Assembly (NCBI GenBank): GCA_000482145.1
Contig: AUXH01000018.1
Span: forward strand, 1 to 64,000
DNA: 64,000 bases
Direction of reading: 5' to 3'
Source of the DNA: Strigomonas culicis
Taxonomy: Eukaryota > Euglenozoa > Kinetoplastea > Trypanosomatida > Trypanosomatidae
A program made the translations under genes and the position numbers. The notes beneath the pieces are model-generated. The model searched no databases. It saw only the letters and a list, made by a program, of their open reading frames with translations, and was not told the origin of the DNA. This document shows, piece by piece, positions 1,208 to 25,046 of the stretch (position 1 is the stretch's first letter; every line of letters starts with the position of its first letter).

Positions 1208-2509
1208 TCAGCTCGTTGAGAAGTAAGGCAGCATGGCGCCACCGCGCTTCAAGAAGGTGTCGATGCACTCACTCGGCTGCACGTCACGGTAGTGATCCCA
1301 GCGTGTGTGGAACGCCTCGCGGTCCAGCTCCTTGAGCCCGTACAGCGCGCGGAACTGCTCCATGTAGCTGATGAAGATGCCCCAATACCACAAGTTGTAC
1401 CCGCAACGCTGCAGCGCTTCTCCGATGAGCTTCGTCAGCACCGCGCCAAGGGTGGCTGCGGTGCGGTTCATCGTGTACATGGTGAAGTCATGGTACACGC
1501 AGCCGAGCGCGAAACCGCAACAACCCGCCACGACCGTCCCCGATGTACGCTCGACCATCTCGATGACCAGCACTCTCACTGTGTTCGTCCCAGCCGGGGC
1601 GTCCGGCACCCTCCCCGCGAGTCCCTGCACGTGGGAGAGCGCGGTAATATAATCATCTAAGAGCCACGTAGAGCCGTGCCGCTCCACGTGGTAGGCTGCC
1701 GCGCGCTGCAGCGACGTCTGGATCGCCTCCGGCGTGTCGCGCACGACACACGCATACGCGCTGCTGGCGAGGAGGCGCTTCACCTTCCTGCTGCGCCGCC
1801 ACGGGTAGGCGCAGCACGGGGGCGGGTGCTCGTCGCTGAGCGCCACGCCCTCCGGCCGATGCAAGCGGCGGTCCTGTAGGTCGATCACGCAGCACTGCGG
1901 CGGGTTCGGCAAGTGCAGCAGCCACAGCACTTGGCGGGCGTTGATGGGCACGTCCTCCGGGAGGACAAAGAGGCCCTGGTAAAAGAGCAGCGGCAAGAGC
2001 GACGTGACGGAGGGCAAGCGCAATGGGTCCGGTGCAATCGTGTACATGAATGCATGCGTGCCCTGATGCAGCGGGCAGTCCACAAAGTCCGGTCGCCGGA
2101 GCAGCTGCGCATCGGAGAGTGTCCGTGCACAGGTCGCCGTGCTAAACAGGGCTTTATAGAGCCCATGCAACTCTTCGGTGGGGACGCTTACAAGCGGTTC
2201 TTGGTGGTCGCCTGCGTCATCGCCTGTCGTGTGCACGAACTGCAGCACGTAGCTCGTCGATGGCGTCAGCGCCCAAAACGTGCAAATCCAGAACGTCTCC
2301 TTTTCTGGGAACTTCCGCTTCCAAGGCGCTATTGCATCGACCACCGCCGCGCCGTATCGTGCCACGTGGCGATATGGTAGTTCATGGGAGGTCACCGTCT
2401 CCTGCAGTGTGTGGTTGCCATCATTGGCAAACAGCGAGGCCCGCAATGGCTCACAGCTAATACAATCGATATGTGTGGCGCCGCAGACCACTTTGCATAC
2501 GTCCGACAT
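1208..2509 (-). CDS. Leucyl/phenylalanyl-tRNA-protein transferase (Aat)-fold protein, atypical active site
   Basis: This 433-residue protein matches bacterial Aat colinearly over about residues 168-405. LLPLLFYQGLF (171-181) matches the Aat N-terminal LLxAYxxGIF block. RQVLWLLHLPNPP (192-204) matches ILWWSPDPR, STWLLDDYITAL (280-291) matches TWITxxVxxAY, and the GNAT core GCCGFALGCVYHDFTMYTM (329-347) matches GMYGVAxGxxFxxESMFS. Aat transfers Leu or Phe from tRNA to N-terminal Arg/Lys (bacterial N-degron pathway). By my alignment the E. coli catalytic positions Glu156, Asp186 and Gln188 are Phe342, Tyr375 and Gly377 here, so activity is doubtful. An extra ~165-residue N-terminal part is trypanosomatid-specific or unrecognised. 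The acceptor AG at 2524-2523 gives a 13-nt leader and fixes the start. No clear mitochondrial presequence. Confidence 0.7.
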   Translation of the reverse strand: MSDVCKVVCGATHIDCISCEPLRASLFANDGNHTLQETVTSHELPYRHVARYGAAVVDAIAPWKRKFPEKETFWICTFWALTPSTSYVLQFVHTTGDDAGDHQEPLVSVPTEELHGLYKALFSTATCARTLSDAQLLRRPDFVDCPLHQGTHAFMYTIAPDPLRLPSVTSLLPLLFYQGLFVLPEDVPINARQVLWLLHLPNPPQCCVIDLQDRRLHRPEGVALSDEHPPPCCAYPWRRSRKVKRLLASSAYACVVRDTPEAIQTSLQRAAAYHVERHGSTWLLDDYITALSHVQGLAGRVPDAPAGTNTVRVLVIEMVERTSGTVVAGCCGFALGCVYHDFTMYTMNRTAATLGAVLTKLIGEALQRCGYNLWYWGIFISYMEQFRALYGLKELDREAFHTRWDHYRDVQPSECIDTFLKRGGAMLPYFSTS

Positions 2510-3355
2510 AATAAAAAAAATACTACGAAAGGCAAATGAGAACAGAGGAGCGAAGGTGAATTATACAACCATGTTCGTGTGAGCCCGTGAAGAGTTAGTA
2601 TGTGAAAAGGGTGAGACAAATAAGCCAGTAAAAGGGGGAACACAGACACAAGCAAAACATCGAATGAAAACAGAACGAGTTGGAGCTCAATTATTTCCTT
2701 TTACTTTTTCCTGTTTCACGTATAGAGTGGATTCAGCGCGTAAATGTATCTCCATATATGCCAGGATCACAAAACACACATGCACAAATCCTGCATTGCA
2801 TATATCACCAACATACTTCTGAAATGATAGAAAGAGAACAAGAAAAACAAACGAAGAGTGTAAAAAGAGAAATAATAATAGTAAAAGAAACTGAACGAAC
2901 AGATCTCTTTCGTAACGATATCATGAAATATTTTTATGTGTTGATGTACTCGGTACTTGGCAATGCATTTCTTGCGCTTGCTTCACTTTTACATGCACTC
3001 ATCCAGAGGGAAAAAAAAAGAACCGGGAAGATGTGAAAAAAAAAAACCACATAATCTCTCTACTTACGAGAAAGAAAAATGTGGAATGAAGATAACGGAC
3101 ACGAAAAAGTGTCTTCTTATATATATATATATATATATAAACATAGGCGATAACTGCTAAATGCGGAGGGAGGCAAATAATGAGAACTGAACTTTTGATG
3201 TTCGCATTATTCGACTTCTCCTAAACGATACAATAGTAACCTCGAATGCTTATATATATGGAGACGTAGATGGAGCGGTTCCTATTAGTTCGTTCTATAT
3301 TTTTGTGTCACCGCACACACATGGGTGCCTTCTGCATGGACGTCTAGCGGAACGG
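2510..3355. other. 845-bp spacer, no gene seen
   Basis: A+T-rich. It holds the 13-nt leader and acceptor of the Aat-fold gene near 2523, a purine-rich stretch (plus) at 2820-2900 and 2995-3050, and an (AT)n run at 3119-3139. Reading frames here are short and A+T-biased, so I support none. Confidence 0.6.
3119..3139. repeat. (AT)n microsatellite
   Basis: Perfect AT dinucleotide run in the spacer downstream of the formate-THF ligase gene. Confidence 0.95.
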
Positions 3356-5224
3356 CTAGGACAGACCCGTGATCTTGCCCGTGTGCACGTCGATGTCGAT
3401 GCCGTAGAAGCAGGGCCGCGTCGGGAGACCGGGCATGGTGGAGATGTCACCCAGCAGCGGAAAGATGAAGCGCGCCCCGCCGTTCACGCGGACATCGCGG
3501 ATCGGCACGATAAAGTCGCTCGGTGCGCCGCGGAGCTCGGGATTGTGCGAAAAGCTGTACTGCGTCTTCGCCATGCAGATAGGGAACGAGCCGTAGCCCT
3601 GCGCCTCAAACGCGCTCAGCTTTTCCTCGGTGCCGTTCAGAAACTCGACCCCCTTCGCGCCGTACAGCTCCGTGCAGATGGTGGTGATCTTGGCCTTGAG
3701 CGACGCATCGTCCTGGTAGAGGAACTGGAAGTGGGGCTCCACCGTCTCGGTGGCCTTCACGAGCGCCTGGGCGAGCTCCAGCGCGCCCTCGCCGCCCTTG
3801 CCCCAGTGGTTCGTCACGACGACGTCGAAGGCGCCGCCCTCCTGGATGGCGAGCTGCCGCACCAGCGCCAGTTCGGCCGCCGTGTCGGACGAAAACTGGT
3901 TGAGCGCGACGACGACCGGCACGCCGAACTTGCGCACGTTCGAGATGTGCCGCAGCAGATTCGCTGTCCCGGCGCGGAGGGCCTCCAGGTTCTCCACGGA
4001 CGCGTCCTTCGTCTCCACGCCGCCGTGGTACTTGAGCGCGCGCACGGTCGCGACGAGCACGGCCGCGTCCGGCCGCAGCCCGCTGGCGCGGCACTTGATG
4101 TTGAAGAACTTCTCGCAGCCCATGTCGGCGCCGAAGCCGGCCTCCGTCAGCACGAAGCCGTCCTTGCCGGCGAGCTTGAGCGCGACGCGGTCCTGCACGA
4201 TGCTGCTGTTGCCGTGCGCGATGTTGCCGAAGGGGCCCGCGTGCACCATCACCGGCGTGCCCTCCAGCGTCTGCATGAGCGTCGGCTCGATCGTGTCCTT
4301 CATGAGCACGGTCATGGCGCCCGCGCAGCCAATGTCCTCCGCAGTCACCGGCTCGCCACTGCGGCTGTGCGCCACCACGATGGCGCCCAGCCGCTCGCGC
4401 ATGTCGTTGAGGTCGTTCGCGAGGGCCAGGATCGCCATCACCTCGGAGGCCACCGAGATCTCAAAGCCCGTCTTGCGCGTGATACCCTTCTCGGCCTTTC
4501 CCTGGCCAATGGTGATCTCGCGCAGCATGCGGTCGTTCACGTCCATGACGCGCCGCCACGAAATCGTGTCGGGGTCAATGTCCAGCCGCGCGAACCGCAC
4601 GCGCTCCTCCGGTGTCAGATCAGACGGGTTCTCCTTGTGGATCCCGAGCTTCTGCAGACGCTTCTTCATGATGGGCGTGAAGTTCCTCAGCTCGGCCGTC
4701 AGGCGCTTGTAGAGCGCCTCGTCCGTCTGCGTCTGCTCGTGGAAGATGCGGGTGTCGATCGCCGCCGCGAGCAGGTTGTTCGCAGCGGTGATCGCATGGA
4801 TGTCCCCCGTCCCGTGGAGGTTGAAGTCCTCCATCGGGATGACCTGGCTGTACCCGCCGCCGGCGGCGCCGCCCTTGATGCCGAACGTGGGGCCCTGGGA
4901 GGGCTGCCGGATGCACGCGAAGCTGGGGCGGTGCAGGTGCGCGCCGAGGGCCTGGGCGAGCCCAATCGTGGTCGTGCTCTTGCCCTCGCCCAGCGGCGTC
5001 GGGCTCATGCCGGCCACGACCACGTACTTGCCGTTGGGGCCCTCGCCCAGGCGGTCGACAATCTTGAGACTGACCTTGGCGCGCGTCGTGCCGTAGGTAC
5101 TGAGCTCGGAGGAGAGGATGCCGCAAGCCTCTGCGATAGAGGCGATGGGCTGCGGGTCCACGCTCTGAGCGATTTCCAAGTCGGATGGCACGGGCACTTG
5201 GCACCGGAGGGGGCGAGCGGTCAT
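3356..5224 (-). CDS. FTL: Formate-tetrahydrofolate ligase
   Basis: A 622-residue monofunctional enzyme that makes 10-formyl-THF from formate, THF and ATP, feeding purine synthesis and formyl-Met-tRNA formation. The family P-loop TPLGEGKST is at 76-84. The hallmark block [20 protein letters not shown] lies at 106-125, followed by [18 protein letters not shown]. The C-terminus keeps [13 protein letters not shown] and a terminal G-D/S-like end. Length is slightly above the ~557 of bacterial enzymes, mostly at the N-terminus; there is no DHCH domain. The acceptor at 5279-5278 gives a 53-nt leader to this ATG. The N-terminus is not a strong presequence, so cytosol is likely. T. brucei is reported to lack this enzyme, so presence is lineage-informative (recollection). 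Confidence 0.96.
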
Positions 5225-5656
5225 ACTGGAAGAGAGTTTGCGGGAGAGGCAAATCGTTGAAACCTTGCACTAAAATACTAAACAAAAATGAAGAAAACGA
5301 CAAGAAAAAAAGGGAGAGATAAGGAAAATTAAAAAGAAATAAGAAATCACGAAGCCATACAGAAAAGTACAATTCTATACCCATTGCCCCTCTCGCTTTG
5401 TACAGCTGTGCACACAAGCGAACAAGGGCATTCAACAATAAATGACTATGGTCTATCCGTCTAGAATGACGGGACGACGTTTTTTTTTTGTTTCCTTTTA
5501 TTATTATTTTTTTTTGTCTCTGCTGTTTGTGTGTATTGTGCATACATTACTTTTTTTTCTTTTTTTTTTAGTTATGTTTTTTTTTCTTTGTCAAAACAAA
5601 GAGAAAACAGCAAGCCGAAAAAGAAGAACGGAGAGAGGCTGTATGTGTATATGTAA
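5225..5656. other. Spacer with FTL leader; T-rich distal half
   Basis: The sense-strand pyrimidine tract at 5281-5330 precedes the first AG (5279-5278). Plus positions 5478-5590 are T-rich, that is, A-rich on the transcribed sense strand, which suits a 3' UTR/polyadenylation zone of the RRM gene. No ORF is supported. Confidence 0.55.
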
Positions 5657-6271
5657 TTATCGGCCTCGTCCGCGGCCACGTCCACGACCGCGACCGTACG
5701 GCGCAAACCCCATTGCGTCTCCACCCATCATTGTGGCCATCATGGTAGCCATGGCAGCCATCTGCATCGGGTTGCCGCGGCCCCGGCCCCCGGGGTACAT
5801 GCCCGGAGCGCCGCCGCGCCCACCGCGCTGAAACGCGGGGACGTTATCGCGCTTCGGCGCCACCTTCAGCGGCGCGCCCTGCAGCGTCTGGCCGTCCTTC
5901 AGCACCGCCGCCTGCGCCTGCTCCGGCGTATCGAACTCGATGTACGCCGTCCCTTTGGGTTGGCCTGAGTAGCGGTCCTTCAAAATGGTGATGCGGGATA
6001 TGGCCCCGCACGCAGCGAAGAAGATGCGGAGGTCGGCATCCGTCACGCGGGTGTCCAGACCGCCCACGAACACGGACGTGTTGGTCTTGCCGCCGGCAGA
6101 GGCGCTGCCCGTGCTCTTGCGCGTCCCCTCATCCTTCGCGACAGATTCATGCAGCTGCTTCAGGTGAAGGTCCTCCTTAAGAGAGTCTACTTGGTTTTTC
6201 AGCTCCTCTAGGTCGGCCTCCGTGTCGAAGTCCAAGTCGGTGTTGAACTCAACCTTGTTCTTGTCTGCCAT
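5657..6271 (-). CDS. Nuclear poly(A)-binding protein-like RRM protein (PABPN1/PABP2 type)
   Basis: 204 residues. Order: acidic N-terminus; short coiled coil (about 18-48); one RRM with RNP2 SVFVGG at 66-71 and RNP1 KGTAYIEF at 106-113; then an Arg/Gly-rich tail ending in tandem RG dipeptides (193-204), a likely arginine-methylation target. Acidic N-terminus, coiled coil, single RRM and RG tail is the PABPN1 architecture, so the expected role is binding nascent poly(A) tails in the nucleus. A methionine-rich patch (169-187) is unusual. A TA dinucleotide run sits 4 nt 5' of the ATG. Another single-RRM RG protein remains possible. Confidence 0.75.
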   Translation of the reverse strand: MADKNKVEFNTDLDFDTEADLEELKNQVDSLKEDLHLKQLHESVAKDEGTRKSTGSASAGGKTNTSVFVGGLDTRVTDADLRIFFAACGAISRITILKDRYSGQPKGTAYIEFDTPEQAQAAVLKDGQTLQGAPLKVAPKRDNVPAFQRGGRGGAPGMYPGGRGRGNPMQMAAMATMMATMMGGDAMGFAPYGRGRGRGRGRGR

Positions 6272-6836
6272 GTTCTATATATATATATATATCTTTTTTT
6301 TATTATTTATGTATGAAAAGAAAAACTGTTAGTCCGTTAAAATAATAATAAGCATGAAAAAAGGAGAGGAAAAATAGAGGGAGGGAGAGGGGATAATAAA
6401 GGGAAAAACAGAAGAACATAAAAAAGGGAAGAGGTTGTGTACAGTGAAAAGGGAGAGAAGAATGAAGTGAGAACAGACAATTATGATATTCGATTGACGT
6501 CACACAATAAGTTTGCAGGAAAAACTACGTTGTGAGGATAGTGAAAGTGACATCACTAGTACCCAACTCGCTAATGAACATGTTTTTTTTCTGTTTTTGT
6601 TTGTCTGTTTGTAGTTGAATCGAAATAGAAGATAGTGGTATAGATATGTATGAATAAGAAACAACTGAAAGCAAAACTCAGTACATCATGATACAGTAAC
6701 AAATAAGCCCATACGTATCAAATACACTATTCCTATCTACTAACGATAGGGATACATAAGAAAGCGTATACAGTAGCTAATTCAAGGCCCGGTAAGGTCT
6801 GGAGCACACCTGTCGCCAGGCCCCGAAACATCACAC
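6272..6836. other. Spacer: leader of RRM gene and 3' region of next gene
   Basis: Sense-strand CT-rich tracts correspond to plus 6357-6450, with a likely acceptor AG at 6327-6326. Plus 6786-6830 is a locally GC-rich 3' UTR segment with short GGCC/GGCCC repeats, just downstream of the next gene's stop. No ORF is supported. Confidence 0.5.
6276..6292. repeat. (TA)n run in the 5' UTR of the PABPN1-like gene
   Basis: An alternating TA tract ends four bases upstream of the initiator ATG (sense strand). A similar run sits just upstream of the RFC start, at 10178-10195. Confidence 0.9.
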
Positions 6837-8582
6837 TCACCACCATTTCTGATAGCGCTCTTCGATCTGCGCTAGCAGCATCTTATCCATACCCCGTCGC
6901 TCTGAGTACTGATCCTCCATCGGCCGCCCCACGTGCATCAGAGGAGGGCCCTGCGCCTTTGTGTGGCTCGCGAAGGGCGGGCGCGGCACCGTTCCCGAGC
7001 GGCTGGTCGTGCGAGGCGAAGCGCTGCTGTCTCGACCGCTGCGGGTCTGCGTCCTGGACGGGGAGGTGCTGCCGGGAAAGAGCTGGCGGTGGTGCGCCGC
7101 GTCTTCGCCCGCGTCGTGGTCGCGGTGGGGCACCGAGGAGGGCGTTGCCTTTGTGTCGCGCGACTGTGGCGACGACGACTGCTGACGGCGGCCCTTGCGC
7201 TGCGCCTCCGGCAGACTCGCGCCGCAGTGTGCGAGGGCCAGGTGCGCGGGGCCCTTCGCCGTGGCCGGCGCCGACCGCGCCGCGCCGCGCTGCGTCGAGC
7301 GCTGCTTCCTGCTGCTGCCGGCACCGCTCCGCGTGTGCGGCTCCTTCGACGGCGGCGGCAACGGAGCCGCGACGGCGGCCGCCGCGGCACTCTGCCGCAG
7401 GCGCTTCATTATTGCTGGGGACGTGGCCGTCACGTTCCCCGGAAAGCGCTCGGGGGGCACCTCCTCCGGGCCGATGGCGCCCTCTGCGTAGAGCTGCTGC
7501 TGGTAGTGGAGGACAAAGTCGTACTCGTACACGCGCAGCTGTCTAAGGAAAGATAACGAGGGGATTTCCCGCAGGTGCTTCACTGCCTTTACAATGTGTG
7601 CGCGCGCGCTCGCCACCGACGGCACCGGTGTCTGGGAGGGAAAGAGACGCTTATAGATCGTAATGAACTTCTCATCATCCGTATAGTTGGTGAACACCTC
7701 ATAACTGAAGAGGCGCTCTTTTATCGTCGGCCCGTAGAAGATGAAATCGGACAGGGTCAACGTCGCCTTCTGATCGCAATATTCGTCTAGGAAATCAAAG
7801 GCCTCGCACTTAGACGCGCCAGGGCTTGTGAACAGCACCAACGCCTCGTGTATATCTTCGGCGACAAGATTCTCTCTGTTGTGCGACAGCAGTAAGAAGA
7901 GATCCATTGCTCGCATGCAGTTCTCGTCATCGGTGTCTCCCGCGTCAAGGGCTGCTCCTGCCTCTGTAAAGTCGATAACCTCAAACAGGAGGCGGATAAA
8001 GCGCACCCTGGAGAGTATAGCGTGGCTGATGGGGTCGCCACCGGACGCAAGGAATGACGCGCTTTGCTGCTCAGACGTGTCTCCGGGCTGCTCCGTCTCG
8101 GCCCCCGATTCCATGCGCTTTCTGGAACCGGCTAAGCAGCGGTTTACTACGAGCTCCAAGGAATCGTGCAAGTGCGGATTCTTCGCGCGGGACGAGTCGC
8201 TGGTGAGCATCAGCTGCCTGGCCGGCGACGCGCCATTGGCCGATGGCTGCACGCGGCCCTTTGCGTGCGCGACCTCCAGCGGCGGGAGGCCCCGCGGCTC
8301 TGCGCCCGCTGACGGTGCAGCGCTGAACGTACCCTCGTTCATCGTCGGCACGTCGTAGCGCTTCACCTCTTTGTGTTCCGCGTGTATTCCGAGGTGGAAG
8401 TAATTGTCTACCGCTACAGTGTCCGCTACGTCGAGCGGCAAGCCTTCGTCGGGCATCGGACACTCGTTACGCGGAGAGGACACATGAGCACTTTCAGGTT
8501 CGTTCGCTGCCGGGACCGGATATCCGTCCTTGATGTGGCAGCCCTGATCAAGCTTATGCGAGTCGGCAGAGGAGGAGCTCAT
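6837..8582 (-). CDS. Conserved-type hypothetical protein, helical core, disordered tail
   Basis: I do not recognise this 581-residue protein. The first ~130 residues are low-complexity. Residues ~190-390 are a folded, acidic helical region with pairs resembling degenerate EF-hand helices (for example the stretch around LLFEVIDF, AMDLFLLLSH and ALVLFTSPG). The last ~180 residues are Arg/Ser/Ala-rich and probably disordered. The start is set by the acceptor AG at 8605-8604, immediately after a CT tract, leaving a 21-nt leader. The longer in-frame extension to 8807 lies upstream of that acceptor and is A+T-rich, so it is excluded. An EF-hand-derived fold is only a guess because no canonical calcium loop is present. 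Confidence 0.75.
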   Translation of the reverse strand: MSSSSADSHKLDQGCHIKDGYPVPAANEPESAHVSSPRNECPMPDEGLPLDVADTVAVDNYFHLGIHAEHKEVKRYDVPTMNEGTFSAAPSAGAEPRGLPPLEVAHAKGRVQPSANGASPARQLMLTSDSSRAKNPHLHDSLELVVNRCLAGSRKRMESGAETEQPGDTSEQQSASFLASGGDPISHAILSRVRFIRLLFEVIDFTEAGAALDAGDTDDENCMRAMDLFLLLSHNRENLVAEDIHEALVLFTSPGASKCEAFDFLDEYCDQKATLTLSDFIFYGPTIKERLFSYEVFTNYTDDEKFITIYKRLFPSQTPVPSVASARAHIVKAVKHLREIPSLSFLRQLRVYEYDFVLHYQQQLYAEGAIGPEEVPPERFPGNVTATSPAIMKRLRQSAAAAAVAAPLPPPSKEPHTRSGAGSSRKQRSTQRGAARSAPATAKGPAHLALAHCGASLPEAQRKGRRQQSSSPQSRDTKATPSSVPHRDHDAGEDAAHHRQLFPGSTSPSRTQTRSGRDSSASPRTTSRSGTVPRPPFASHTKAQGPPLMHVGRPMEDQYSERRGMDKMLLAQIEERYQKWW

Positions 8583-8925
8583 CAACTTGACTACTCTCAC
8601 TAACTGAATAAAGAAGAAGGAAAGGGGAAAGTGAGAAAAAAAAGGTAAGAAAAGCCTTCGTAAATGTACAAAGGAAACCTTCGACCAACGACCAATAAAG
8701 GTACGCAGTTTACGTTTAAGGCAGAGAACGACACACAGAGAAAGAAGACGACGGAAAAGGGAAAGGAATAAACTTGAAAAGGGAAGTGAACAAGTATCAT
8801 TTATCATTATGCAAGTCGAGCGAGCCGGAAAGAGTGTGTAATCATAAAAGCGATTATAATACTATCTGTATTCTTTTTATTGGCTCTGCGGTTAGCTATT
8901 ATCATTGTCGTGTCTTGTGCTCGTA

Positions 8926-10571: not shown

Positions 10572-12548
10572 CTACTTCATTGTCAAGCGAGTTTGCTGTA
10601 TCTTCTCTTTGAGCGAAGAGGACATCTTCAACTTCTTCTCATCCACCAGTGTGGCGTGGATAGCATGTGTACCGTTCTGACGGTGGAGTGACAGCGGCAC
10701 GGCGACGTCTCCCGCCGTCCTGATGGGGCTGCGCTCCTTGATCGGTGGCAACGTGTCGCCGTGCGTGCGTGAGGGCACAATTTGGCGTTTCCCAACCTCT
10801 CGCTGCAGTGGCGCCCGCTCACGCTTCATGACATGGTCATCCTCGTCCTTTGGCATGTGGCCGCCCCGACCGCCAAACCCGTTCTCATGCGTGAAGCTAG
10901 ACGTTTTCTCCATGTTCCGTGGCGGTACTGGAAGTGGGCGATCGTCCAAGTTACGCGGCTGCGGAATGGCAGGGGCCTTCCACGGCAGATTCGAGGACGA
11001 GTTGGACGAGCCGAGGACGGGTGAACCAGGCTTGCTCTTCGTGAACAGCGCGCGTGCCGAGGACTCCAGCTCGTTTGCCTCAAACAGCAGGCTCTCCAGG
11101 TCGTGCGGGCCGCCCTCCATCGCCTGCAGCACCTTCGCACGCTCGGTCTCGATGAGCTTCAGCGTGCGCTCCTCCGTGATGGGGATGGCGGCCGACGTCG
11201 CGGCCGCGACGACGGCGCACAGTGCCCGTGCCATCTTGCGGCTGGGCGAGTCGCCAATGTCGACGTACTTCACCGCGGCGGCGACAATCGGCGCGCTCAT
11301 GGAGCGGAGGTAACGGCAGTCCGCCTTGTACGTGGCCGCCGACACGCACAAGGCAAGGTAGGCCAGGCACTTGCGGCGCAGCTCCGTCTGCGTGCCGTTC
11401 TCCAGGGCAGCGAGGATGGTCGTGGACACCAACGGATGCCCGTGACTTTGGATGGTGACGTCCCGCATCGCCTTATCGGTTGCCTGCGAGATGGCCGACA
11501 CCGTGACGTACACGCCCTTCGCCAGCGAGGCCGTCCACTTGGCGAGTACAGACCCCACCGGTCCGCTGCCCGCCTCCACCTCCTTCGTGAACGCGGGCTC
11601 GAGGCTAACACGGTTCATGAGCAGCGACACAAGGTCGCACGCACAGCGGCACAGCGCGGATCGCTTTTCCCTTGTCAGCACCTCTACCGCGCCGGCGAGG
11701 GTGGTGAAAATATCGGCCATGTGGGTGGCGAAGAAGTCGGTGTCGAGCTCCGACACCCAAGAGCTAATGGTCTTCGTCGCCTTCAATCGATCACCCGCCT
11801 TTTTCTGGGCGTCCTTCGCCACGTCCGCCCTCACCTTGAGCGCCTCGAAGAAGTTGGCCAAGGGCGGGAGCGGCTCGAAGACATCCTCATCGAGGAGCTT
11901 CTCGAGGGTGCCGGTCTGCATGCTCATGCCGAAGGCGGCGCAGCCGCTGTGCGACCCCCTGCGATACGTGCTCGCAAAGTTCACGTCGCCACAGTCCTCT
12001 AGCATCTGCAGCAGTGTGCGTTCGTCCTCGACCATGTAAAAGCTGTAGAGCGTGTTCTTGTCGCCCCCAGAGCGGGCGTCGATGAAGTTAAGATACTCCA
12101 CCGCCTCCTTGACATTCTTCTCGGCTGTCCGAATGTCATTGCCGTCCTCAATTTTCACGCGAAGTGCTGCACGCACGTCGCGACAGAGCCCCACGTACAC
12201 CATCAGTTCCTCATGCGGAATGCGCTCACGCAGCAGGGGCTCCAGCTCGATGGCCGTCTCGCGGGTCAGGACCTTGGCCTGGTGCATGGGCACGGACCCG
12301 TCCTGGTGCTGCGCGTCGAAGCTGACAGAGCCGCCCACACTGATGTACATGAAGCACTGAAACAGCGTGTCCACCTCCGTGTTCAGCTCCGTCGCATACT
12401 TGCGCATTTTATGAAAGAATTCGTGGAAGTTTCGCATGTTATCACGCAGCTGTATGAGTTGGTCTGCGTTGGAGGGAGGGCGCCGTACAGAACTGTGTAG
12501 CTCCATTTGCCGCGTGAGCAGTGTACCCACATCCATCTCTGTATTCAT
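10572..12548 (-). CDS. Helical-repeat protein, possibly TOG/HEAT-like with BAR-like N-terminus
   Basis: 658 residues, not recognised by name. Residues 1-260 are long amphipathic helices in a pattern compatible with a BAR or coiled-coil module. Residues ~270-460 are a run of short antiparallel-type helices (FFATHMADIFTTLAGAV, ALCRCACDLVSLLM, RRKCLAYLALCVSAA) that look like HEAT/TOG repeats such as the CLASP N-terminal domain. Residues ~480-658 are proline/serine-rich, basic and probably disordered. A microtubule or membrane-cytoskeleton role would fit but is inference only. No catalytic motif is seen. GC-rich third positions across the whole frame support it as a real gene. Confidence 0.75.
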   Translation of the reverse strand: MNTEMDVGTLLTRQMELHSSVRRPPSNADQLIQLRDNMRNFHEFFHKMRKYATELNTEVDTLFQCFMYISVGGSVSFDAQHQDGSVPMHQAKVLTRETAIELEPLLRERIPHEELMVYVGLCRDVRAALRVKIEDGNDIRTAEKNVKEAVEYLNFIDARSGGDKNTLYSFYMVEDERTLLQMLEDCGDVNFASTYRRGSHSGCAAFGMSMQTGTLEKLLDEDVFEPLPPLANFFEALKVRADVAKDAQKKAGDRLKATKTISSWVSELDTDFFATHMADIFTTLAGAVEVLTREKRSALCRCACDLVSLLMNRVSLEPAFTKEVEAGSGPVGSVLAKWTASLAKGVYVTVSAISQATDKAMRDVTIQSHGHPLVSTTILAALENGTQTELRRKCLAYLALCVSAATYKADCRYLRSMSAPIVAAAVKYVDIGDSPSRKMARALCAVVAAATSAAIPITEERTLKLIETERAKVLQAMEGGPHDLESLLFEANELESSARALFTKSKPGSPVLGSSNSSSNLPWKAPAIPQPRNLDDRPLPVPPRNMEKTSSFTHENGFGGRGGHMPKDEDDHVMKRERAPLQREVGKRQIVPSRTHGDTLPPIKERSPIRTAGDVAVPLSLHRQNGTHAIHATLVDEKKLKMSSSLKEKIQQTRLTMK

Positions 12549-14241: not shown

Positions 14242-15498
14242 CTATTCGTTATACTCCTTCGCCCTAATGTACTTTGCAAAATTGTTATCCGCATCCCGGA
14301 GCATCTCTCGCGAGCTCTGGCTTCGGCGGCGGCGGTAGGGGTTACCCATGTCCATCACAACACGGTTCACGCCCGGCTGGACCTCCTTCTCGCGGCCGAT
14401 GGGTGCATTCAGCTCATACTTGAAGTCACGGTGCACTTGATGAATCGTCGGTGAGTAGCGCAGCAGCTCCTCGGGCGTCGGGGCATTGGTGAGCACCTTT
14501 GCCTTCCGCATCCAATGCCCGCGCATCGTGTGGATGCGGCCGGCGAAGTCTCTCATGTTGAAGAACTTCTGGTCCAGCAGCTCCTTCCGCGTCGTGAGCA
14601 CGCGGATCACGTCCGCGCGGTCCCCGTCACCGCACTGCTTGTCGTAGAACTGCTCCGCCCGCGCCAAGCACTGGTCCGCCAGCGCAAACGTGCGATCGTA
14701 GTCGAAGGGTGAGAAGTAGAGGAACTTCTGTTCGTGGTTGAGGTTGAAGCGCCGCCCGAGGCGCGGCAGCAGTCGCAGCATGCGGTGCGAGCTGCCCATG
14801 TCGTGGTACTGGCGCACAACGTTCACCGCCTCCTCGTACACGCGCCCCGCATCGGCCTCGCCGAGTGCCTCCTTCGTCAGCCCTAGCTCCAGCAGCGCCT
14901 CGACAATGAGCTCCAGAGAGGGCTGGGCGTTGCCATCCAAGATCTGCAGCGCCGCCTCGGCGTTCGCCTTGCCACTCTCCAGTCTATTGGTGCGACGGAA
15001 CGCGCCGGCGAGCTTGATGCGGATGCCAGCCTGTTGCGTGTGCCCGGCCGGGTACGCTAGCTCGTACGCCTTGGCCACCACCCCGTAGAACTCGAGCGCC
15101 TCCTGGTGCAAGCCGCCCTCCGTGAGGTAGTCGCCCTGCAGCTCGAGCTTGGCTACCTCGCCCAGCGGTGCGTACGGCCGCGGCGGCCTCGCCTCCGTCA
15201 GCGAGGACGCCTCGGCGTCGGGGCGCATGTGCGCGAGATCCGTGCTCGCCGCGTCCTTCCACGCGATGCCCTCCACCGCCGCATGCTCCGCCTTGTGCGG
15301 CGACGTGGCTTTGCCTTCTCGCGCCATGTGCACGGACACCCCGGCCGGCAGGCGGGACTTGGGCACCACCATCTGATTAGGGAACAGATCGCCCTTATAG
15401 AAGGACGTGTACAGGCGCGTAATGCGCCGGCGCGGCTCGCACAGCGCAAGCGACGCCGTCGCACCCGCCTGAAGGGACTGCAGCAGCCGACACCGCAT
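14242..15498 (-). CDS. TPR-like protein with mitochondrial-type presequence
   Basis: 418 residues. The N-terminus MRCRLLQSLQAGATASLALC followed by EPRRRITRLY is Arg/Leu/Ser-rich without acids, typical of a mitochondrial import signal. Residues ~110-260 contain TPR-like helix pairs (LELQGDYLTEGGLHQEALEFYGVV, KANAEAALQIL, EALLELGLTKEAL). The C-terminal third is basic with aromatic residues and no repeat, ending in conserved-looking YRRRRSQSSREML. A role in a mitochondrial assembly such as the ribosome or RNA editing machinery is plausible but not shown. The ATG at 15498 is preferred; the longer frame upstream is A+T-rich and hydrophobic. Confidence 0.75.
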   Translation of the reverse strand: MRCRLLQSLQAGATASLALCEPRRRITRLYTSFYKGDLFPNQMVVPKSRLPAGVSVHMAREGKATSPHKAEHAAVEGIAWKDAASTDLAHMRPDAEASSLTEARPPRPYAPLGEVAKLELQGDYLTEGGLHQEALEFYGVVAKAYELAYPAGHTQQAGIRIKLAGAFRRTNRLESGKANAEAALQILDGNAQPSLELIVEALLELGLTKEALGEADAGRVYEEAVNVVRQYHDMGSSHRMLRLLPRLGRRFNLNHEQKFLYFSPFDYDRTFALADQCLARAEQFYDKQCGDGDRADVIRVLTTRKELLDQKFFNMRDFAGRIHTMRGHWMRKAKVLTNAPTPEELLRYSPTIHQVHRDFKYELNAPIGREKEVQPGVNRVVMDMGNPYRRRRSQSSREMLRDADNNFAKYIRAKEYNE

Positions 15499-15816: not shown

Positions 15817-16923
15817 CTAGAGATTGTACGGGTTGTCCATGCCTCTCTCGCCGCCAACCGTGCTGTAGCCGCCGTACTGTGGGCCTGACCTCACATTATT
15901 CCAGAACAAGAGGCACCTAAGGATACAAGAGCGAAAAAAGTCAATATGAGGCACCATCTCAGGAAAGTCCAGCATCCCATTTCGCGAATAATTGTAGTAG
16001 CTCCCAGCGATTAGATAGACAACAACAATCAGAAACGCGTAGCACAACAGCGTCAGAAAACTCATCCCTTCCGTGTCTGACTTCGCTGTGGATTGACGGT
16101 TAGGGACAGGGCTGCCAGGTGAAACAGTAGTCCCTGATCCCTTGTTGCTACCCTCTTCCAGCGTCCACATCACCGTGAGATACAAGAACATATAAGGGTC
16201 GCTGTTAGACAAGTCAGGCTGGTAATAGTATTTCACCGTCTTCCCCGCTCCCACAAGGATCACCTGACCCAGTGCATGTGGCTCCCACTGTTTTTCATCC
16301 GCAGACAAAACGTAGACGCCCGTGTTCTCGCTGGAGCCTGTCGTCCTCACAATAAAGCCGTTCATGTCAGCTGGGAGCGTTGTCTGGAAATAGATGACGG
16401 CAGCGCTGCCTCCATTATCGCGGACCGCGCGTGGAATGAGGGCGACGAACGCGTTCGTGGGTGATACAGGAATAAAGCAACTGGGATAGTTAGAGTGGTA
16501 GCTAAAGAAACGAAAAGGAACAGGACCGTCTGGACGCTGACGGTTCACCCACACCTCCACTTGCGAATTAGGAGACACACTATTCAATTTGAGAATCCCA
16601 TTGGCATCGCAAGCGGCCACGGTTCTCGATCCTGCCGAGGTTGTGTACGTTGCGTTGAAGGAGAGCCAGTTCTGGGTGAAGGCCCCCACATTGACCGGAA
16701 AGGCCCGCGCCACCAGTATAACCGCCTCGGCAGCGTCCGACGGGTCATGCGTCACGGCAATGCGGAAATGGTCATTATACTCTCCGGCGAAGCCGTGCAC
16801 CTCGTCACAGAGCGCCACGTCGCGCGGGGGGGTATCCACGCCCGTGACCACCATAAGAGGGACGAGGAGAAGGAGCACAAGACCCACACGCATCGCTCTT
16901 AGGGGGTACATCGTAATCGCCAT
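15817..16923 (-). CDS. Type I membrane receptor with MRH/ATG27-like C-terminus
   Basis: 368 residues from the ATG at 16923; an ATG 10 codons later starts directly at the signal peptide (MRVGLVLLLLVPLMVV). The luminal part (~30-285) has several cysteines and many Asn/Ser/Thr. One transmembrane helix lies at ~288-307 (LLCYAFLIVVVYLIAG), followed by SYYNYSRNGMLDFPEMVPHIDFF. The motif of a small-residue TM end, YN, then PHxDFF is characteristic of the ATG27/cation-dependent mannose-6-phosphate receptor-like group. The short cytosolic tail contains YGGYSTV, possibly a Tyr-based sorting signal. Likely a Golgi/endosome cargo receptor. The MRH fold itself is not proved by eye. Confidence 0.65.
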   Translation of the reverse strand: MAITMYPLRAMRVGLVLLLLVPLMVVTGVDTPPRDVALCDEVHGFAGEYNDHFRIAVTHDPSDAAEAVILVARAFPVNVGAFTQNWLSFNATYTTSAGSRTVAACDANGILKLNSVSPNSQVEVWVNRQRPDGPVPFRFFSYHSNYPSCFIPVSPTNAFVALIPRAVRDNGGSAAVIYFQTTLPADMNGFIVRTTGSSENTGVYVLSADEKQWEPHALGQVILVGAGKTVKYYYQPDLSNSDPYMFLYLTVMWTLEEGSNKGSGTTVSPGSPVPNRQSTAKSDTEGMSFLTLLCYAFLIVVVYLIAGSYYNYSRNGMLDFPEMVPHIDFFRSCILRCLLFWNNVRSGPQYGGYSTVGGERGMDNPYNL

Positions 16924-21882: not shown

Positions 21883-24312
21883 TTATGGCGCGGTAGGGGA
21901 CTTTGGCGAGGACGCCTCGCTCACGTTGCCCACGTCCTCCGTGTAGTGCCGCGATATCTTCTCTCGCAATGCAGCTGTGAGGACAGGGGTGATTTCCTTT
22001 CGGACTAAGTTGGCGGCGTGCGATTCGGCCTCCTTGTCTCTTTCCTTCTTGCGGCCGTCTTTGTGTTCTGCATCGACCGCATCTTCCTCTTCCTCCTCGT
22101 CCTCCTCCTCCATGTCATCATCGTCTTCTTCAGTCTCCTCACCGAGTTCTTCCTCCGAGCTGCCATCTTCTTCGTCATCGTCTGACTCATCATCGTCGTT
22201 GATTTCAATCTCTGTCGTCACGTCATTCATCTTCCTCTGTGAGGTGTCCTCTCTTTTCTTCTCCTGTCCTCTATTGGTGGAGGGTGGAGACGCCTTGACC
22301 GCGGAGGACTCATAAGGCGGCAGTTGCTTCGGGATGACCGAGGGAAGATTTTCCTGCGTCGCCACCGCAGGTTCGCCGTCGTGCTCTGCCGTGTACTCCC
22401 GCACGGCGGCGGTGGCAGCGTGCGCATCCGTCTCCTCCACCACCTCCACCTCCACCTCTGCATCCACCTCTGCATCCATCTGCGTCTCTAGTCGGTGCGG
22501 CTGCTCAAGAAAAAAGGTCCACAGCCGCTCCGCCTGTCGCTTGGTGATGATCTGCGCCGCCGCGAACTGTAGCAGATGATCCAGCCCAATAGGTACCACA
22601 ATCTCCGTGTCGCACTCTGAGAGATCAAAAACGGTGTCATCTGACGCCACGGTGGGGATCGACGCGACATCGTCCAGCCGGTCCGATATGGTATCCGGCA
22701 CGTACGTTGGTTGAAGCTGTTCGTTGTAGGCAGCGGCGACGGGGAGCTCATTGGGCGTGAAGAAGCCGGCTCTAGCGAAGTCTGGCTTCTTCACCCGCGA
22801 CTGCGGGATAGCGCTTGTGGGCTTCTGCATTTTTTGCTGGGACTTGAGTGGTGGAGACCTTGAGCGGCCGCCCGCTGGTCCGTCGGGCGCTGTCTCCGCG
22901 CGAAGCGGCAGACCGCCGGCGCCACCCTTGGCGTCGACGAGCTTCGACAGGTTCTTCTCCTTCTGCCGTGCGTTCCGCAGCTCCGCCTTCAGCTGCTTCA
23001 CTTGGTCCTCCCATCCCTTCTCCTTTTCTCTCATTTTGCGCATCTGCTCCGCATTGCACTCAATCTTCTTGTTCAGCTGCTCCACGAGTGCGACCGGTCG
23101 ACGCTGCAGCCCGGTGGGCGAGGCACCTCCCTTGCGGCTTCGGTCTCGGTTAACGGCCTTCTGGCGGCCTCCGCTCCCGGAGGATCGGTTTTCCTGCATA
23201 CCTGCCGGCTCATCCTCGTCCGCCGCCGGCGTGCCGTTCTCGTGCTGCAAGCAGTTGACACCCTTCACACCGCCCTGACGCGAGTTGGTCGTGCGCGGGG
23301 CACGGCGGCCGCCGACGGGGGACTGCCGTGGTGCATCCTCTTCGTCGCCCCTCACCGGCGAGCCGTTGTTCAGTCGGCGGCGCACGTCCTCCACTAAGCT
23401 GTAGTTCCGCGGCAGACAGTGCCGGTCGTACCCATCCGGCGCCTCCACGTCCGACCCGTCATCTCTGCCAGCCCCCTGACTCGACGGTGCAGGGGGAGTC
23501 ACGCGCTCCCTCAGGGCGATTCCGTTCTTCTTCGCCTCACTCAGCTGGTAGATGGCGTCGACCGGCAGAGACTGGGTGTCGTGTTTGCGACCGTTCTTGC
23601 CGCCCTGCGGCGACGCGCCCACGCCGAGTCGCTCGGACAGGCAGGGAGACCGCTGCACGAGTTGGATGGGAAGGGAGTTGGTCTGGTGCTCGCCCCCCTC
23701 CTGCCCCCGCTCGCCGCGCGGCGACAGGAGGGCACGGCCGTTCGCATTCTTTTGCCCCACCTTCGAGACGGCTTTTTTCCCGTTATTCACACCTAACCGA
23801 TCCGCGCCAATGCGCGCCGGCTCTTGCGGCGATGTCCTCTTGTCCTTGGTGCGTTGCGATACGGGATTCGTCGGCTGCTTCTGTTCCACGGGCGTCGCAA
23901 CGAAATTGGCCTGGCCATCCTCAAAGTTGAGGATGTAGCGATGTACCTCTTCTCCACTGGAAGGAACTAAATTTCTAATGTTCTCCGTCTGTTGACTCAG
24001 TGGGGACACCCGGTCGGGGACGGGCGAGCGGGAGGCCACAGCCGCCGCCGTTGTGGGGCTCGTCGCCTTCACCGCAGGGCCTGCATCCCCCGCGTCCGCG
24101 CGCTGGCCGAGCGCGAGGCCTGGAGGAAGGCCTATTTTGCTAGAGCGCCTACCACCATGACGGCCTTGCTTGCGCTCCGCCATTTCAGCCATTTGGCGGT
24201 CTAAGGCCTCTCGGAGGGCCTTCTGTTTCTGCTGTTTGATGAGTGCATCCTGCATCCGCTCCTCTGTGATGGTGACCGGCTTGCTATATACATGATCATC
24301 GGCACTAAACAT
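21883..24312 (-). CDS. Large coiled-coil/acidic hypothetical protein
   Basis: 809 residues from the ATG at 24312; the 200 codons upstream in frame are A+T-rich UTR. The N-terminus has a charged helix (MQDALIKQQKQKALREALDR) like those of centrosomal/axonemal proteins. The middle is basic and disordered with a coiled coil at ~407-460. Residues ~704-742 form a near-continuous Asp/Glu tract. A Val-Glu repeat (EVEVEVVEE-type) lies near 620-635. No catalytic domain. Possibly cytoskeletal or nuclear; unknown. Confidence 0.75.
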   Translation of the reverse strand: MFSADDHVYSKPVTITEERMQDALIKQQKQKALREALDRQMAEMAERKQGRHGGRRSSKIGLPPGLALGQRADAGDAGPAVKATSPTTAAAVASRSPVPDRVSPLSQQTENIRNLVPSSGEEVHRYILNFEDGQANFVATPVEQKQPTNPVSQRTKDKRTSPQEPARIGADRLGVNNGKKAVSKVGQKNANGRALLSPRGERGQEGGEHQTNSLPIQLVQRSPCLSERLGVGASPQGGKNGRKHDTQSLPVDAIYQLSEAKKNGIALRERVTPPAPSSQGAGRDDGSDVEAPDGYDRHCLPRNYSLVEDVRRRLNNGSPVRGDEEDAPRQSPVGGRRAPRTTNSRQGGVKGVNCLQHENGTPAADEDEPAGMQENRSSGSGGRQKAVNRDRSRKGGASPTGLQRRPVALVEQLNKKIECNAEQMRKMREKEKGWEDQVKQLKAELRNARQKEKNLSKLVDAKGGAGGLPLRAETAPDGPAGGRSRSPPLKSQQKMQKPTSAIPQSRVKKPDFARAGFFTPNELPVAAAYNEQLQPTYVPDTISDRLDDVASIPTVASDDTVFDLSECDTEIVVPIGLDHLLQFAAAQIITKRQAERLWTFFLEQPHRLETQMDAEVDAEVEVEVVEETDAHAATAAVREYTAEHDGEPAVATQENLPSVIPKQLPPYESSAVKASPPSTNRGQEKKREDTSQRKMNDVTTEIEINDDDESDDDEEDGSSEEELGEETEEDDDDMEEEDEEEEEDAVDAEHKDGRKKERDKEAESHAANLVRKEITPVLTAALREKISRHYTEDVGNVSEASSPKSPTAP

Positions 24313-25046
24313 CGCCTTGCGTCTGGGGGTGATGCGAAAATGCTGGAAAAGAAAACTATGCAACGAATGAACGGGAAAAAAAAAAGATGGTAAAAGAACG
24401 CAAGGCACGTATATATGGATGTAAGAAATGTGTATATCAACAACCCTTCTCTCGCAGCGAAAGGAAAAAGGTTCAAAAAAAAAATCTTGTAGTAAAAGCA
24501 CAGAAGTGAGTGCAGAAAACTTCAAGAACAGGTTTCTTTTGGAAAGTGGAAGAGAGCGAGCGAGCGAGAGACAGAGAAAGAGAGAGAGAGAGAGAAAGAG
24601 AGATGTACAAAGGAGAAGAGTAACACAAAAGGTCAAAGCAGAAGTCAGATCAGGACGGGGAAACGAAGTATCCCCCGCTTCTGACAGATTGACTCCTGTT
24701 GCCAGCGCTGCTCTTCGTGTCGTTGGGACTAGATAGCAAAAGGAAAAGGGAGTGATAATAGTTCCACAGTAATCCTGTACTAATACAGACACACACACAC
24801 ACAAACAAAAAAAAAAAAAATAGTCTATAAGGAAGATGGAAATAAGGAAATGGGTTAGCAAACACGTAATCGTAATCATTATAGCAATCGCAATAAAATC
24901 GAAGGATATCACACGAGTTCCTTTTTTATTCTCGGTTTCATCATTATTTACTTCGTTAAAGTTTTATGAGTTTTTTTTTTGAAGTTGTGATTTGACACGT
25001 TAGTTCTTTTTGTTTTGCCATTGATGGTGTTGTCGGTGTCATGCTT
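24313..25046. other. Spacer with GA-rich microsatellite
   Basis: Plus 24551-24602 is GA-rich, that is, a CT tract on the sense strand that could serve as splice signal. Plus 24788-24822 has CA then poly-A. No gene seen. Confidence 0.5.
24551..24602. repeat. GA-rich imperfect microsatellite
   Basis: Mostly (GAGC)n and (GA)n units on plus; a CT-rich tract on the sense strand. Confidence 0.8.

Follow-up and report, generated by a model that had tools for sequence, protein, structure and literature searches.

The window analysed here comprises positions 1 to 64,000 of contig AUXH01000018.1 of Strigomonas culicis (assembly GCA_000482145.1). One of its genes encodes a PF03588-like trypanosomatid protein that has the fold of the bacterial leucyl/phenylalanyl-tRNA-protein transferase (L/F transferase, Aat) and carries an N-terminal extension. 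According to the alignment of its family, the bacterial residues Glu156, Asp186 and Gln188 have been replaced by a fixed set, namely Asp341, Tyr/Phe342 and Trp374-Tyr375-Trp376-Gly377. The evidence leans towards a maintained site rather than a dead one, and the protein probably has a job that is related to that of bacterial Aat, but different. It is tentatively proposed that the protein is an aminoacyl-tRNA-dependent N-terminal aminoacyltransferase with changed specificity, and not an L/F transferase.

Fold, family and active site

A protein search with the window protein retrieved ten orthologues (four from Leishmania, one from Porcisia, two from Leptomonas and three others) and a fragment of the window protein, and the Trypanosoma cruzi orthologue (P0013) was recovered by a later search. 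The family alignment thus contains 12 members. A profile search of a large protein set, limited to 7995 candidates, found the same ten proteins only; it missed the T. cruzi orthologue and is no gauge of absence from Trypanosoma brucei or others. The UniRef name of the T. cruzi protein starts with "Leucyl/phenylalanyl-tRNA protein t" (the rest is cut off), and its NCBI name is "hypothetical protein".

PF03588 was the sole Pfam family matched by members of the family. Matches at E<=10 were obtained with seven of the 12, and the curated cut-off was equalled by the T. cruzi protein and by none of the others. In single-sequence searches the window protein had no match in Pfam, including the ATE_N and ATE_C domains (PF04376, PF04377), or in NCBIfam, and no relative among the PDB sequences. 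Profile searches of the PDB sequences yielded one chance match each, which was not Aat; the NCBIfam aat model matched none of the ten members scanned, and that scan gave two chance matches. The PF03588 profile found no match in the genome assembly of the organism (17.7 Mb, 670 contigs), the window gene included. In the structural comparison Aat was far ahead of FemX, MprF, ATE1 and GNATs of the coenzyme A (CoA) type, and E. coli Aat was the closest fold (model residues 165–426); by Foldseek E-value FemX came next (E 3e-4 and 8.6e-5). The hhalign match to Aat spans residues 229–412, and the identity of 13–19% lies in the twilight zone. A CoA loop, (Q/R)xxGx(G/A), was present at residues 340–362 in none of the 12 members. 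The claim of the preliminary description that this is a eukaryotic gene with an Aat fold is therefore borne out by the trypanosomatid orthologues, the PF03588 matches and the structural and hhalign matches, and no other GNAT family fitted better than Aat.

The window protein shares its fold with bacterial Aat (PF03588; E. coli structures 2cxa, 2dps, 2dpt, 2z3k, 2z3l and 2z3n), from which its family differs by changes at the donor-pocket positions 144, 153 and 185 and by the long N-terminal extension. The length of about 165 residues given earlier for this extension agrees with the 164 residues that precede the Aat/GNAT-like domain. The extension has no Pfam match and is poorly conserved, with six of 164 residues invariant and only one of the first 60. 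By eye it might contain a fibronectin-III-like domain. In the T. cruzi model it consists mostly of beta strands with a low predicted local distance difference test score (pLDDT), while the model of the window protein has strands and helices with a pLDDT that is lower still.

Asp186 belongs, with Glu156 and Gln188, to the key residues of E. coli Aat. The canonical residues were taken from 31 bacterial Aat proteins, and all 31 have Glu156, Asp186 and Gln188; at each of these positions 0/12 members of the window family have the bacterial residue. The hhalign register equates them with Phe342, Tyr375 and Gly377 of the window protein, which is the same assignment as the one originally made. It had also been suggested to check whether the substitutions are conserved in trypanosomatid orthologues, and they turned out to be fixed in 12/12: position 342 is Tyr in nine members and Phe in three, position 375 is always Tyr, and position 377 is always Gly. 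The positions of Gly155 (341) and Ile185 are likewise uniform, with Asp and Trp, respectively, in all members; that of Met144 is Cys in 11 and Ser in one, and that of Phe153 is Tyr in 11 and His in one. The tRNA-facing features are retained. The basic helix and Trp111, which lie on the aminoacyl-tRNA side of Aat, have equivalents in every member (Lys at 242 and either Arg or Lys at both 244 and 245 in 12/12; Trp282 in 12/12, as in 31/31 bacterial Aat). In one review the 3′ adenosine is described to stack on conserved Trp residues, which are not named there (PMC4052509).

What speaks most for a functional pocket is that the replaced site sits in the best-kept part of the protein, where a site that had merely decayed would not be expected. 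Of the 433 residues, 51 are invariant in the 12-member alignment, and the richest windows of 23 residues, with 14 invariant residues each, all lie inside 355–386 and are the highest of the protein. LWYWG (373–377) is itself invariant in 12/12. According to a review, the donor pocket of the bacterial enzyme is lined by Met144, Phe153, Leu170, Phe173 and Ile185, and Glu156 and Gln188 are thought to hold the basic N-terminus of the acceptor (PMC4964394).

Aat-like relatives and the N-degron setting

A search of the same genome with the T. cruzi orthologue revealed the window gene and a weak match on contig 169 (E 0.013). The open reading frame there, termed C169, encodes 340 amino acids from an inner Met and 398 in all, and its sole Pfam match is PF03588 (E 0.031). 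Its hhalign matches are weak (Aat: probability 15, E 0.0018; window family: probability 35, E 4e-4). In this weak register Met144 is replaced by Glu, Glu156 by Ala, Ile185 by Trp and Gln188 by Gly, and Asp186 is kept. In a search of plasmids with C169 as query a protein of Sulfuricurvum kujiense was found (WP_013450006.1, termed P0014; E 5e-5), which matches PF03588 with 45.2 bits and has the motifs GEIGY, YTSLSGF and FWNLG. It is encoded on the plasmid pSULKU02 (251–973) and annotated as a GNAT acetyltransferase. C169, P0014 and the window protein have in common that they are of the PF03588 type, carry Trp instead of Ile185 and Gly instead of Gln188, and have lost Glu156. Trp185 and Gly188 thus characterise a wider Aat-like set, because C169 and the Sulfuricurvum protein both carry them. 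C169 and P0014 differ from the window protein in that Met144 is replaced by Glu (GEIG) and position 186 is Asp or Asn, and they lack HDFTMYT and LWYWG; Tyr186, Asp155 and Cys144 distinguish the window family from both.

A tree was calculated from 44 cores (30 bacterial rows, with L082 omitted, the 12 family members, C169 and P0014). It splits into bacterial Aat, the window family, and C169 together with P0014; the branches are very long (C169 7.1), and no order of the groups is claimed. Inside the window family T. cruzi branches off first, followed by P0011, the window protein and the Leishmania-Porcisia-Leptomonas group, and because of this order the family looks as if it had been inherited vertically.

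Further relatives were scarce. No match was found for C169 or P0014 in phages or for P0013 in plasmids, P0014 found only itself in plasmids, and the viral contigs held no relative of P0014 or C169. C169 gave three weak places in 299 Pseudomonadota genomes and P0014 five in 398; two of these eight (G004, G016) were compared, and both lay on canonical Aat. TIGR00667 gave weak places in the S. culicis genome on C283 (E 0.07) and C121 (E 0.23), and inspection by eye found nothing Aat-like at the C121 locus. In two of 100 Pseudomonadota genomes canonical Aat is accompanied by another, weak PF03588 relative, which scores 36.4 bits in one (G005:C20:2301-2732) and 32.6 bits in the other (G060:C15:51876-52367); judged by eye, both seem to lack the GESMF and DCQ motifs.

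The Aat-type arginyl-transferase of Plasmodium falciparum is called ATEL1. Eukaryotic Aat-like proteins are already known, as Sharma et al. document: the P. falciparum Aat homologue conjugates Arg, and LmjF.21.0725 of Leishmania major is an Aat-like cytosolic protein, probably essential in promastigotes, that was modelled on 2cxa and for which BLASTN gave no further copy in L. major (PMC6135404). By its description, the P. falciparum enzyme resembles the proposed one: it is likewise an Aat homologue from a eukaryote, its specificity has changed, and it is set in the context of the N-end rule (PMC6135404). LmjF.21.0725 is, like the window protein, Aat-like and trypanosomatid, but its coding sequence of 1131 bp encodes 376 amino acids, whereas the four Leishmania orthologues of the window gene encode 488–493. 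The antigen peptide printed for LmjF.21.0725 is matched at best at 4/14 positions in these four orthologues and at 6/14 in any member (Porcisia). The window gene is thus ruled out as LmjF.21.0725 by length and by the printed peptide, the full sequence not having been compared. C169 could conceivably be the orthologue of LmjF.21.0725, which is guesswork; C169 also lacks the printed peptide (4/14).

The surprise of a eukaryotic gene with an Aat fold is lowered, because such proteins are known, because of the UniRef name of the T. cruzi orthologue, and because the loss of Glu156 and Gln188 is common to C169 and a bacterial PF03588 member. In the open-licence literature no paper on this gene was found, and a fixed replacement of the three residues, a second Aat-like gene and a setting without ATE1 and with a PRT6-type N-recognin were not found described.

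UBR boxes read basic N-termini. A six-frame search of the S. culicis genome gave no match for ATE_C or ATE_N, and no ClpS domain was over the cut-off in it (best E 0.21). One frame of 1858 amino acids contains both a UBR box (57.1 bits) and PRT6_C (67.2 bits), spanning 1298–6871 of its locus; this trypanosomatid genome thus encodes an N-recognin that resembles PRT6 of plants. For a second UBR-box place (C642), hmmscan of the frame did not bear out the match.

Proposed function and its alternatives

If the window protein is an aminoacyltransferase of changed specificity, its acceptor would differ from the bacterial one, because the pocket proposed for the basic N-terminus has lost its acid and its amide, Glu156 and Gln188. 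A changed donor is suggested because the donor pocket has been reshaped (Cys for Met144, Tyr for Phe153, Trp for Ile185, and Asp for the adjacent Gly155); a different amino acid may serve as donor, perhaps one with a positive charge that is gripped by Asp341 and the aromatic residues. Catalysis would proceed without the bacterial Asp and Gln, akin to the substrate-aided mechanism of FemX. The FemX/FemABX ligases also use an aminoacyl-tRNA donor, and FemX is described as functioning without a general base (PMC4964394). Proteins tagged with Arg or Lys, and not with Leu or Phe, would be the readable product in this genome; a transferase that makes such ends would fit this gene set better than a maker of Leu/Phe ends, because ATE1 was not detected, an N-recognin with a UBR box of the PRT6 type is present, and no ClpS was over the cut-off. 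More ambitious, and rather doubtful, is the view of an ATE1-less Arg/Lys N-degron pathway, in which two rebuilt Aat-fold enzymes feed the PRT6-type recognin, and the window protein, with its acceptor and donor pockets turned into an invariant cage of Asp and aromatic residues and no bacterial catalytic residue, would represent a novel way of catalysing N-terminal aminoacylation from tRNA.

Several observations weigh against an active transferase of this kind. All three key E. coli residues are lost in 12/12 members, and a new general base cannot be assigned confidently. Trp49, present in 31/31 bacterial Aat, seems to have no match, Leu or Ile standing there as judged by eye. The model of the window protein is least reliable near LWYWG (pLDDT 66 and 58 for the blocks of 371–390). 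The donor pocket is still hydrophobic and aromatic in character, no orthologue is known to be active, and C169, which has Glu in place of Met144 and retains Asp186, is the better candidate if either protein transfers Arg. In addition, the negative result for ATE1 concerns one unfinished genome, and the controls included no eukaryote.

The loss of all three residues could also mean that the protein is a pseudoenzyme, a catalytically inactive Aat fold that has been retained as a regulator, as a binder of tRNA or N-termini, or as a partner of a C169-type protein. This is a real possibility that ranks close behind the transferase. The other Aat-like protein of the same genome retains Asp186, a variable extension at the N-terminus would be in keeping with an adaptor, and degenerate second Aat-like genes occur also in the two Pseudomonadota genomes mentioned above. 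However, the position of LWYWG in the best-conserved stretch (14 of 23 residues invariant) speaks for selection that acts on the pocket directly, and the example of FemX indicates that a general base is dispensable.

The remaining explanations are less probable. An acyl-CoA-dependent GNAT, with a donor switched to acyl-CoA and with protein N-termini or small molecules as targets, is unlikely because the CoA loop is missing from all members, and the runner-up of the Foldseek search, FemX, is an aminoacyl-tRNA enzyme. Even harder to maintain is a true L/F transferase that employs other catalytic residues to add Leu/Phe to basic N-termini. E. coli Aat is the closest fold, the T. cruzi orthologue reaches the PF03588 cut-off, and its truncated UniRef name seems to say L/F transferase; however, the proposed anchors of the basic N-terminus are gone in 12/12, the donor pocket is altered, and no ClpS domain over the cut-off would read the Leu/Phe ends. 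The least probable explanation is a shift of the alignment at the active site, so that the key residues are not truly replaced and, for example, Asp341 serves as Glu156. The twilight-zone identity, the invariant Asp one residue ahead of the Glu156 position and the low pLDDT at 371–390 would permit it, but Met158, Ser157 (Thr) and Phe159 (Tyr/Phe) align unshifted, LIDCQ and LWYWG align without a gap, and Asp or Glu is absent from 371–380 in 12/12, with Gln only at 372 in one member and at 379 in another.

Genomic setting and significance

The coordinates of the gene, its parts and the second Aat-like locus are compiled in Table 1. The minus strand holds 26 of the 29 ATG-started open reading frames of at least 280 amino acids in the window. 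The Pfam matches of the window frames and short neighbours include formate-tetrahydrofolate ligase, reticulon, RRM, RFC, TCP-1 and TBC proteins. A 368-residue protein encoded on the minus strand at 15817–16923 matches ATG27 (autophagy) in its C-terminal part (E 1e-9), and the long minus-strand frames at 6837–8807, 10572–12548, 14242–15498 and 21883–24879 have no Pfam match at E 0.001.

Table 1. Positions of the Aat-like gene, its motifs and related features (window coordinates unless a contig is given).
Feature	Position	Strand	Basis
Coding sequence, 433 amino acids, trypanosomatid Aat-fold protein	1208..2509	-	Open reading frame; 10 further proteins and the T. cruzi orthologue aligned
N-terminal extension, residues 1-164, poorly conserved	2018..2509	-	Conservation counts, structure models
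Aat/GNAT-like domain, residues 165-426	1232..2017	-	Span of structural matches; hhalign 229-412
Basic helix WRRSRKVKRLLAS, residues 237-249, equivalent of E. coli SRSMKRFHKR	1763..1801	-	hhalign
TWL, residues 281-283, equivalent of TWI with Trp111	1661..1669	-	Family counts
HDFTMYT, residues 340-346, replaces CGESMFS (Gly155 to Asp341, Glu156 to Phe342)	1472..1492	-	hhalign and family counts
LWYWG, residues 373-377, replaces LIDCQ (Asp186 to Tyr375, Gln188 to Gly377)	1379..1393	-	Invariant in 12/12
Pyrimidine-rich tract with a terminal AG, a candidate trans-splice acceptor of this mRNA	2819..2890	-	Sequence, by eye
Second, shorter candidate trans-splice acceptor	about 2522-2550		Sequence, by eye
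C169 Aat-like protein, same genome	G000:C169:20347-20898		Search match with T. cruzi P0013

With no ATE1 found and a PRT6-type N-recognin present, the two Aat-fold proteins suggest themselves for the transferase step that is missing. The pathway is of biological and drug-target interest because LmjF.21.0725, another Aat-like protein, is reported to be essential in L. major promastigotes (PMC6135404). As the loss of the three key residues is fixed from T. cruzi to Leishmania, the catalytic needs of the Aat fold become directly testable.
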